In this document: piece by piece, positions 6,602 to 36,625 of the stretch | How the letters are laid out: each line of letters begins with the position of its first letter | Position numbering within the stretch: the first letter of the stretch is position 1 | NCBI GenBank assembly: GCA_003229115.1 | Contig: QIHT01000222.1 | Location: 1-37,751, forward strand | Source of the DNA: Gammaproteobacteria bacterium | GTDB taxonomy: Bacteria; Pseudomonadota; Gammaproteobacteria; SZUA-229 | DNA: 37,751 bases | Direction: 5' to 3' | Notes under the pieces: generated by a model | Database searches by the model: none | What the model was told of the DNA's origin: nothing | Seen by the model: the letters and a program-made list of their open reading frames with translations, nothing else | Program-made: the position numbers and the translations under genes

Positions 6602-7843
6602 ATGTTCCTTTATCGCCTGCTTACTATCGTTTTCTCACCGCTGATATTTAATCACCTGCTATGGAAAAGTCTGCGCTTCAAACAATCACGCTTTTTACTA
6701 CAGCGCCTGGGTTTTGGTTTAAATCACATACCACAGCAGTGTTTATGGTTTCACTGCGCTTCTGTTGGCGAGACAAACACAGCACTGCCCCTTATTTATG
6801 AATTACGCAAACGCAATCCATCACAAAAATTCTTAGTCACAACCAACACCACGACAGGTGCTGAAATTATTGCCAGACAGGAGCAAGCGTGGCTATTTCA
6901 TGCTTACCTGCCTATGGACTGGGTAAACACAACGCGTAGATTCACAAACCAGATAAAACCACTTGCTTTGTATATTATAGAAACCGAGCTGTGGCCCAAC
7001 CTGATAGATGTGTTTCACAAGCAGCATGTTCCAGTCACCATCATTAATGGTCGATTATCCGAAAAAACTACTGCAACTAACCGGTGGATAAAGTCAGTTT
7101 ACAAAAGCACACTAAAACACATTGAACATATTTACGTGCGTTCCAGGATTGATCGCGACCGTTATATACAACTTGGCGCCGACCAGAATAAAGTATCAAT
7201 TTTGGGTAACCTTAAATTCATACCACCCAATAAAAAGAACATAAAAACCCAAAAGACAACTGATCGTGATTATATTGTTGTAGCTTCCAGCCACGAAGGT
7301 GAAGAACTTGAAATTACTGAATGCTGGAACCAGCTGAACAGAAAAGAACTCCTGGTGATAGCACCTCGTCATCCTGAGCGTAGTGAGAAAATCATAAAAC
7401 AACTAGCCGGAAACAACATTGCTGTACGAAGTAAAAAAACCCCGGTTACTGAAGACACAAAAATTTATCTTCTCGACACCATCGGCGAATTAACCCGTTG
7501 GTTTGTAAATGCAAAAGTTATTATTGTTGCTGGTTCTTTCATTCATCGTGGCGGTCACAATATTCTTGAGCCTGCACACTTTGGCAAGGCCATTATTTTT
7601 GGCCCGCATATGGAAAGTTTTGAAGATGAGGTCGAGATATTGCTATCAGGTAGTGCCGCACTGCAGGTGACTTCAATCGAAGATTTAAAAAATATTTTAC
7701 CCAGCTTGCTTGACTCAAACACTGCGCGGGAACAATTACAAACTAATGCGACAAGAGCAGTCGAACCCTTTACCCGTATTCTTTCAGACTATGCGGATAT
7801 TGTAGAACATCAGCTTAAGCGTGTAGGTTCAAGCCCGATTTGA
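6602..7843 (+). CDS. waaA: 3-deoxy-D-manno-octulosonic acid (Kdo) transferase WaaA
   Basis: WaaA (KdtA) transfers Kdo from CMP-Kdo to lipid IVA on the cytoplasmic face of the inner membrane. The 413-residue protein has an N-terminal hydrophobic anchor (LLTIVFSPLIFNHLLW), then FHCASVGET with the conserved acid at Glu57. ETELWPNLI and NGRLSEK follow in the N-terminal GT-B half. The C-terminal half contains APRHPER and SFIHRGGHNILEPA, the donor-binding region. It starts 15 bases after the acyltransferase and is followed by a perfect inverted repeat in the gap to convergent kdkA. WaaA enzymes add one, two or more Kdo units; the Kdo kinase gene next door suggests a single-Kdo inner core, as in Haemophilus. 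That last point is inference. Confidence 0.96.
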   Translation: MFLYRLLTIVFSPLIFNHLLWKSLRFKQSRFLLQRLGFGLNHIPQQCLWFHCASVGETNTALPLIYELRKRNPSQKFLVTTNTTTGAEIIARQEQAWLFHAYLPMDWVNTTRRFTNQIKPLALYIIETELWPNLIDVFHKQHVPVTIINGRLSEKTTATNRWIKSVYKSTLKHIEHIYVRSRIDRDRYIQLGADQNKVSILGNLKFIPPNKKNIKTQKTTDRDYIVVASSHEGEELEITECWNQLNRKELLVIAPRHPERSEKIIKQLAGNNIAVRSKKTPVTEDTKIYLLDTIGELTRWFVNAKVIIVAGSFIHRGGHNILEPAHFGKAIIFGPHMESFEDEVEILLSGSAALQVTSIEDLKNILPSLLDSNTAREQLQTNATRAVEPFTRILSDYADIVEHQLKRVGSSPI

Positions 7844-7878
7844 CTAAAATACGACAACTAACTGACATTTAGTATTGG

Positions 7879-8022
7879 CCACAGAGGCACAGAGTACACA
7901 GAGAAAACCGTATTTATTTTATGCAATACCGATGCACTCGTAGGAGCAATTTTAGCCACTCCTACAAGTGCAAATTACACAACAAATTAAAGGTTTTCTC
8001 TGTGTACTCTGTGCCTCTGTGG
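7879..8022. repeat. Nested palindromic intergenic element, perfect 31-bp arms
   Basis: Outer arms at 7879-7909 and 7992-8022 are perfect reverse complements over 31 bases (left arm starts CCACAGAGGCACAGAG). Inside lies a second inverted repeat, 7933-7946 against 7959-7972 (TGCACTCGTAGGAG), matching 13 of 14 positions. The element fills the gap between convergent waaA and kdkA, so the transcript could fold into a long hairpin from either strand and may end both mRNAs. No ORF for a transposase is inside, so it resembles a non-autonomous or REP-like repeat. Related copies occur at five other places in the window. Confidence 0.9.
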
Positions 8023-8066
8023 TAAAAAAAGTCTTTTTACACGCACAAGTAAAATCAAGGCATAAA

Positions 8067-8792
8067 TTATTTAACACTGCCATAGCCCGCTAATAAACTT
8101 CGCCAACCTTCTTCTGAAAAATGAAACATTTCAGTTTTAGCTTCGAATTTCAACAACGATCGCTTTAATCGGGTGAGATTTGATGCTTTCCACGCATCAC
8201 CCAGATAACGTATGGCACCCTTGTCAAAATCAATTAAATGGATACCACTATCGCCTACAAGAATATTTCGCGCATTCAAGTCGGCGTGATATATATCGTG
8301 TTCATGAAAACGCCGTATACAGGCACCGATGGCCAGCCAGATATTTTTCTCCAACGCGCCTTCCAATAAAGCATCTGCCAGTGTTGTTACGTTAGTAATT
8401 TCTTTTGTGATCAAGTCAGCCTGGTAAAACAGGTTCGACTTGATGACGCTGGCTGCGACAGGAACAGGCGCAGGTAGATTTAAGTTCTGAAGACGACTTA
8501 ACAATTCCCACTCTTTGAAAGAGCGAGTGAAATCAAGTCGGCGGCGCAGGTAGCGATCATTACTTATCCGGGCCACCAAACCGCCACGATGGTAGTGCTT
8601 GAGCACCAGACTGAGCCCCTGATAGTCGTAAAACATGGCCTCACCGCGACCTTCCGCGGTTTTTAACCGGGTTTCCTGTAACTCTGGAGAAAACAGTGCT
8701 TCATCCGGATGTTCAATCAGCGCAGCATCATATAGGATATGCCGCTGACCAATCTTTAGTTTTCGAGCATTTTTTTCAGATGACCCTGTCAC
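8067..8792 (-). CDS. kdkA: 3-deoxy-D-manno-octulosonic acid kinase KdkA
   Basis: KdkA phosphorylates the first Kdo residue of the LPS inner core using ATP, at the cytoplasmic face of the membrane. The 241-residue product has the same length as I recall for the Haemophilus influenzae enzyme. It shows LVLKHYHRGGL (glycine-rich and lysine part), RSFKEWELLSRL with the conserved Glu, and the kinase catalytic loop YHADLNARNIL with Asp171. The metal-binding segment HLIDFDKGA comes next. The start is GTG at 8792; no nearer ATG would keep the N-terminal domain. Its start overlaps the divergent opsX start by 13 bases. opsX and kdkA are also neighbours in Haemophilus, which supports both calls. Confidence 0.93.
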   Translation of the reverse strand: MTGSSEKNARKLKIGQRHILYDAALIEHPDEALFSPELQETRLKTAEGRGEAMFYDYQGLSLVLKHYHRGGLVARISNDRYLRRRLDFTRSFKEWELLSRLQNLNLPAPVPVAASVIKSNLFYQADLITKEITNVTTLADALLEGALEKNIWLAIGACIRRFHEHDIYHADLNARNILVGDSGIHLIDFDKGAIRYLGDAWKASNLTRLKRSLLKFEAKTEMFHFSEEGWRSLLAGYGSVK

Positions 8793-34146: not shown

Positions 34147-34298
34147 GCCGCAGAGCACTAAAGAGGTTATTGTTACCGTCTGTCATCCCGAACGAATGTG
34201 AGGGATCTGTTGCATTGAAGCACAAGATCCCTCACATTCGTTCGGGATGACAAAACATTAATGAATTGGCCAGATTTTTCCTCTGTGTGCTCTTTGGC
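34147..34298. repeat. Two-level nested palindrome between moxR and kdsA
   Basis: Outer arms 34147-34166 (GCCGCAGAGCACTAAAGAGG) and 34280-34298 are imperfect reverse complements. Nested inside are perfect 27-base arms, 34182-34208 and 34225-34251 (left arm starts GTCATCCCGAACGAATG), with a 16-base loop. The inner unit resembles the widespread TCATCCCGAACG...TTCGGGATGA type of bacterial dispersed repeat, apparently inserted within the CAGAG-type element. The rest of the 415-base gap between moxR and kdsA holds a possible kdsA promoter and nothing else I can name. Confidence 0.9.
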
Positions 34299-34399
34299 AA
34301 ATAAAAAATCAGTCCGGCAACACGCAGAGTATCCACATTAACCGCTCAAAAACAAGGTTCATTGGCGCAGAAAAACAAGCATCAAAACCCGCCTAAACT

Positions 34400-36494: not shown

Positions 36495-36625
36495 GCCACA
36501 GAGGCACAAAGCACGCAGAGGAAACCCATTTTGGAGTTAACATAAAGTCACTCCTACATAGAGTGTTTATGAGATACGTAAACAAATACAAGCGTTTTTC
36601 TCTGTGTACTCTGTGCCTCTGTGGT
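36495..36625. repeat. CCACAGAG-type inverted repeat between tal and kdsB
   Basis: Left arm 36495-36525 (starts GCCACAGAGGCACAAAG) and right arm 36594-36625 (ends CTGTGCCTCTGTGGT) are imperfect reverse complements; the outer 16 bases match at 15. The right arm is nearly the same as that of the element at 7879-8022. The interior holds CACTCCTACATAGAGTG, similar to the inner CACTCCTACAAGTG of that element, so the two are related throughout. It fills most of the 183-base gap between tal and kdsB. Confidence 0.82.

Follow-up and report, generated by a model that had tools for sequence, protein, structure and literature searches.

The feature lies in the 37,751-nucleotide stretch of DNA that was analysed, hereafter the window, between waaA (Kdo transferase) and kdkA (Kdo kinase), which converge on it and were correctly named and oriented in the original prediction. 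It is a palindrome whose arms match at 31 of 31 positions across an 82-nucleotide loop, and the loop holds a second, smaller inverted repeat; both the perfect arms and the inner palindrome had been predicted. In an inverted-repeat search, the arm pair could be extended to 49 nucleotides at 84%. The parts of the element, its neighbours and two further family members in the window are as follows.

6602-7843, plus strand: waaA (PF04413), the upstream neighbour, with its stop 35 nt before the left arm.
7868-7878, no strand: outer left flank, with a weak outward consensus AAAAnnTTTyA|CC over 87 elements, fading at about -12.
7879-7909, plus strand: left arm, CCACAGAGG CACAGAGTA CACAGAGAAAACC, three tandem CACAGAG units, with 56 genome matches at up to 3 mismatches and 0 in the control.
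7910-7933, plus strand: loop segment GTATTTATTTTATGCAATACCGAT, common to a composite subfamily (C140, C42, C95 and C39).
7934-7971, no strand: inner hairpin (7934-7946 / 7959-7971), GCACTCGTAGGAG...CTCCTACAAGTGC, by alignment a collapsed GTAG-type REPIN.
7992-8022, minus strand: right arm, the exact inverted copy of the left arm.
8023-8034, no strand: outer right flank, TAAAAAAAGTCT, with the same weak outward consensus, fading about 12 nt outside.
8067-8792, minus strand: kdkA (NF002475), the convergent neighbour.
34149-34299, no strand: third element, decayed, whose nested palindrome is another one, TGTCATCCCGAACGAATGTGAGGGATCT (arms of 33 nt, 34181-34213/34220-34252).
36496-36624, no strand: second element, in the tandem gap that separates a fructose-6-phosphate aldolase gene from kdsB, with 29-nt arms at 86%.

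Since the consensus outside the arms fades about 12 nt out, the exact end of the element is not fixed. Its single strand folds at -83 kcal/mol, compared with a mean of -31.7 for shuffled sequences (z = -14.2), and as none of 200 shuffles was as good, the palindrome is far beyond chance. A search of the element against Rfam gave no match. The proposal of a bidirectional terminator did not hold up: a scan of 7700-8200 found no terminator-like site, no T-run comes after the stem on either strand, and the element is not a canonical intrinsic terminator. The waaA-kdkA gap is 223 nt here. Of two relatives that keep the gene order, one (G008) has a gap of 9 nt and in the other (G017) the genes overlap by 4 nt, and this comparison of junctions shows the window copy as an insertion relative to these two.

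Judged by its sequence, the palindrome belongs to a small dispersed repeat with about a hundred copies; we defined the family by arms in which three C[A/G]C[A/G][A/G]AG units stand in tandem. In a column profile of 87 elements, the three CACAGAG units are preceded by ACC or GCC and spaced 8-9 nt apart. We found 152 exact copies of the three-unit core (71 + 81) in the 2.3-Mb, 82%-complete draft genome and none of the reversed pattern; 1.29 Mb yielded 87 paired inverted-arm elements of 73-256 bp, except one of 502 bp, besides 38 single arms. The search for the full 31-base arm that had been proposed as a check agrees, as its 56 matches, with none in the reversed control, show that the arm is not unique. 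Family members have sequence in common but not flanks, which were unrelated in 566 of 574 full-length element pairs, the best pairs being 96-97% identical. In relatives of the same taxonomic family the number of exact cores lies between 0 and 14, which marks the amplification as lineage-specific. A genome from another class (G152) has 193 arms in 2.9 Mb under a two-unit pattern, more than the window's genome, and is a better place to study recent arm activity. The flank comparison that had been suggested gave no convincing target-site duplication, as direct repeats were not in convincing excess at any offset, symmetric or asymmetric, among 79 elements.

The original prediction took the perfect arms as a sign of recent spread or ongoing selection. 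The dispersal of the arms and paired elements supports spread, but arm perfection is not simply a sign of recency, because paired positions change in concert between elements. Both spacers were equal in 14 of 42 elements, where 4.9 were expected and the maximum of 5,000 shuffles was 12, and both-sided changes keep the pairing at the two spacer columns; arm matching is maintained. Two loci of the data set (L023, 1163-1220; L051, 1599-1650) have arms grown to four to six tandem CACAGAG units, which suggests unit slippage inside the arms.

The loops host other palindromes. The closest members of the family (C140, C42, C95 and C39) align over a common loop segment, GTATTTATTTTATGCAATA, followed by GTAGGAGCGGC...GCCGCTCCTAC; at the same place C95 retains a full REPIN of two inverted REPs, whereas in the window copy and the others it has collapsed to a single hairpin. 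The inner hairpin carries GTAG and a REP stem in common with the dispersed REPs of the genome, and by this alignment the inner palindrome is a collapsed GTAG-type REPIN, a known kind. We found the arm-REPIN-arm composite at about five loci, a recurrence which indicates spread as a unit; most simply, a REPIN would have been nested once and the composite then dispersed, and this speaks for the outer palindrome travelling as a whole. Nesting inside CACAGAG elements was seen at 10 of 30 sampled loci for this REPIN (REP1; P = 6e-6) and at 8 of 17 for a third palindrome, TCATCCCGAACGAATGTGAGGGATCT (P = 2e-6), in both cases even with intergenic space only, though composite copying makes these counts not fully independent. 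REP2-type palindromes showed no enrichment in the elements (3/43, P = 0.48). The palindrome TGTCATCCCGAACGAATGTGAGGGATCT of the decayed element at 34149-34299, the one to which the 8 of 17 sampled loci belong, has 46 arm copies in the genome.

The exceptional 502-bp element (locus L096, 1278-1779) encloses a GxxExxY gene precisely between its arms (ORF 1304-1672). The encoded protein is a clear member of TIGR04256 (149 bits; cut-off 35) and PF13366 (PDDEXK_3), a family that already has a name and a fold assignment, and the gene is the only GxxExxY gene found in this incomplete draft. The reading frame opens within the left arm (TTEDTEV..). The 3' end of the coding element (1690-1779) is itself a complete short palindrome of arm, loop and arm, so that the arm is doubled at one end. 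The arms of this element, CCACAGAGGACACGGAGGTCCACAGAG, belong to a sister subfamily and are not of the exact CACAGAGGCACAGAGTACACAGAG type of the window copy; a matching enzyme, a GxxExxY protein with TACACAGAG arms, may lie in the missing ~18% of the genome or may have been lost. No enzyme adjoins the window copy, in keeping with the earlier expectation that a mobile form would need help from elsewhere.

In relatives, GxxExxY genes are bracketed by CACAGAG/CGCAGAG arms or by other tandem 8-10-mers (CGCAAAG, CGCAAATGAA, CAGATGAA), and the window element has its arm architecture in common with these. A bracketing inverted repeat scoring at least 13 was present at 33 of 41 GxxExxY loci in a sample of the phylum. 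Among loci of named genomes, fetched by the pattern LGPGLLES and thus limited to one large GxxExxY subfamily, such arms bracketed the gene at 60 of 80, compared with 2 of 282 control windows placed at shifted positions in these loci. The 80 loci come from Pseudomonadota, Desulfobacterota, Planctomycetota, Chloroflexota, Acidobacteriota, Cyanobacteriota, Bacteroidota, Verrucomicrobiota, Gemmatimonadota, Spirochaetota, Myxococcota, Methanosarcinales and others, about a dozen phyla in all. A paper on reverse transcriptases reports GxxExxY in place of a cas4 gene. The literature searched, which excluded bioRxiv and most subscription papers, described no repeat association of GxxExxY and contained the arm sequences only in unrelated contexts; as far as checked, the association of GxxExxY with the arms is undescribed.

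Genes for four-helix-bundle proteins (23S IVP family) were considered as a second cargo of the CACAGAG arms and rejected, as none of 15 such loci was bracketed by them. PF05635 genes of this kind in relatives (L217, L218, L221, L222, L229 and L230, at about 1500-1810) are bracketed by other tandem-unit inverted arms, with units AGTTATCAGT.., GTTAGTC.., AGTTACGAGGG and AGTGAAAA, and with their own arms they are a possible third gene-plus-arms class.

The structure model of the GxxExxY protein has a pLDDT of 96.3 and a pTM of 0.89, and its nearest solved folds in Foldseek are Cas4 SSO0001 (probability 0.96, E-value 7e-3) and lambda exonuclease (probability 0.93), with E-values above 0.001. In an alignment of 63 sequences, D67, E77-x-K79 and Q91xxxY95 are invariant, and G24, E27 and Y30 of the GxxExxY motif are kept. 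The D...ExK and QxxxY motifs together with the modelled fold indicate a PD-(D/E)XK fold of the Cas4/lambda-exonuclease type and a putative nuclease. In six genomes of Nostocales (Nostoc and relatives) the gene stands at one conserved locus, vertically inherited and single-copy. We found no near-identical GxxExxY copies within one genome, no match in phages and only eight plasmid records.

The number of arms follows the presence of the gene. Across 399 genomes of the phylum, with kinship ignored, 40 of the 52 with at least five arms had a GxxExxY gene, compared with 25 of the 347 with fewer; within the most represented family, again ignoring kinship, at least five arms were found in 37 of 45 gene-bearing and 9 of 29 gene-less genomes (P = 1.7e-5). 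The 12 of 52 arm-rich genomes without a detected gene include many incomplete ones, and 25 of 65 gene-bearing genomes had fewer than five arms of the type scanned for. Loci with more similar proteins also have more similar arms (Mantel rho 0.35, higher than in any of 2,000 permutations, 36 loci under 65% identity), a covariation that could come from shared descent only. Three GxxExxY paralogues in one genome each have a different arm type (L374-L383; G243, G267), so several gene-arm pairs coexist. The dispersed arms follow the resident type, ACCACGAAG making up 46 of 74 in genomes with a ACCACGAAG resident and 4 of 39 in those with ACCGC residents; one genome (G240) is a partial exception, its dispersed arms, ACCGCAGAG, differing in part from the resident arms, ACCACAGAG. 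These data show an association of the arms with GxxExxY genes.

The feature is a member of a large repeat class that has no name, and its association with the nuclease gene places it in the "dispersed palindrome plus single-copy gene" kind. Because its arms also bracket GxxExxY genes in at least a dozen phyla, the palindrome looks like the non-coding part of a nuclease-plus-palindrome system, one that resembles REPINs and their RAYT transposases but does not appear to belong to them. On balance we favour the reading that the element is a non-autonomous dispersed palindrome, the partner of a single-copy GxxExxY nuclease that copies it in trans, as RAYTs would REPINs, with an unrelated enzyme. 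GxxExxY would bind the arms, most likely when they form a hairpin in single-stranded DNA (the lagging strand or a cruciform), and cut or trim there; the cutting would allow copies of the palindrome to be made in trans at sites that lie downstream of genes. Arm matching could be kept by correction templated on the hairpin, or because a palindrome must be able to fold to serve as a substrate.

The placement of the elements bears on a different explanation, in which a long hairpin at gene 3' ends protects or ends the mRNA, or is an RNase III site, and the link with GxxExxY is secondary. Among 78 elements, 34 lay in convergent, 42 in tandem and 2 in divergent gaps, with a median of 30 nt after the stop in tandem pairs; convergent gaps were favoured (P = 9e-7) and divergent gaps avoided (P = 5e-5). 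The automatic gene calling labelled the window element as tandem on account of a spurious GTG ORF; its actual setting is convergent. This pattern, the concerted change of paired positions and the strong fold would suit an RNA role, but the same placement is expected from selection against promoter and gene insertions, as for REPs, and fits the purging of harmful insertions and a 3'-end function alike. With no terminator-like site around the element and an orthologous waaA-kdkA junction that lacks it in two relatives, we consider such a role unlikely.

An HuH tyrosine transposase (RAYT or TIRYT) might instead move the palindromes, with GxxExxY genes as passengers inside. This genome has five Y1 transposase genes, and the REP1 loci inside elements show that the two systems interact. 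On the other hand, none of the 30 RAYT loci examined was bracketed by CACAGAG-type arms, for which reason we rejected RAYT as mobiliser of the outer arms; where RAYT loci do have inverted arms, these are mostly TIRs of the GGGGTCAG type, which is the GGGGWSAS consensus that known TIRtrons show (PMC3733652), the outer arms are without the GTAG tag, and arm number follows GxxExxY. The passenger explanation is therefore doubtful as well. Spread of a simple repeat by replication slippage and template switching, with no enzyme of its own, would account for arms of tandem 8-9-nt units that match within elements and for the varying unit number in the C11 and C17 arrays. It would not explain, however, why the arms go with a single gene family in different phyla, and complete elements with loop sequence in common are found at unrelated loci; we regard it as very improbable.

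A palindrome copied in trans by the GxxExxY nuclease has its closest parallel in the REPIN-RAYT system or REPtron (PMC8049555, PMC8266576), with which it has in common a single-copy, vertically inherited gene bracketed by its associated repeats, many short dispersed inverted pairs in extragenic places, and multiple gene-repeat pairs per genome, each of its own type. Unlike there, the enzyme is a Cas4/lambda-exonuclease-like PD-(D/E)XK protein and not an HuH tyrosine transposase, the arms are tandem CACAGAG-like units ending in ACC/GCC, with GTAG only in the nested inner hairpin and not at the foot of the outer stem, and the occurrence extends to archaea and to about a dozen phyla of bacteria. 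RAYTs have been called domesticated for their single-copy, vertical behaviour (PMC8049555), and the GxxExxY gene, with its conserved locus, no near-identical copies, no phage match and few plasmid records, behaves like them. TIRtrons (PMC3733652) similarly have a gene between long inverted repeats, which occur as dispersed families too, but TIRYTs are HuH enzymes and their TIRs are of another sequence (GGGGWSAS motif), one that we recovered around RAYT genes of relatives. Y1 transposase (RAYT-like) genes of the family (L108-L136) are often bracketed by GGGGTCAGA inverted repeats that match this TIRtron consensus. Classical MITEs are likewise short and non-coding, with terminal inverted repeats, dispersed with unrelated flanks and having arms in common with a coding element; in contrast to them, we found no target duplication, no DDE transposase and no near-identical multiple copies of coding elements.

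More broadly, and with confidence a little short of even, GxxExxY with tandem-unit inverted arms may constitute a class of domesticated palindrome-copying systems that crosses domains, in which hairpins are spread by a Cas4-like nuclease and not by an HuH transposase, convergent with REPIN-RAYT and with loops hosting other palindromes. Some annotated N-termini reading TTEDTE... are translated arm DNA. The unexplained, widespread "GxxExxY protein" genes gain a candidate substrate and the widespread CACAGAGG-type intergenic repeats a candidate enzyme, and the idea is directly testable, as each gene carries its own predicted substrate beside it. If the nuclease does copy palindromes, it would be a second, chemically unrelated solution to REPIN-like spread, in bacteria and archaea.
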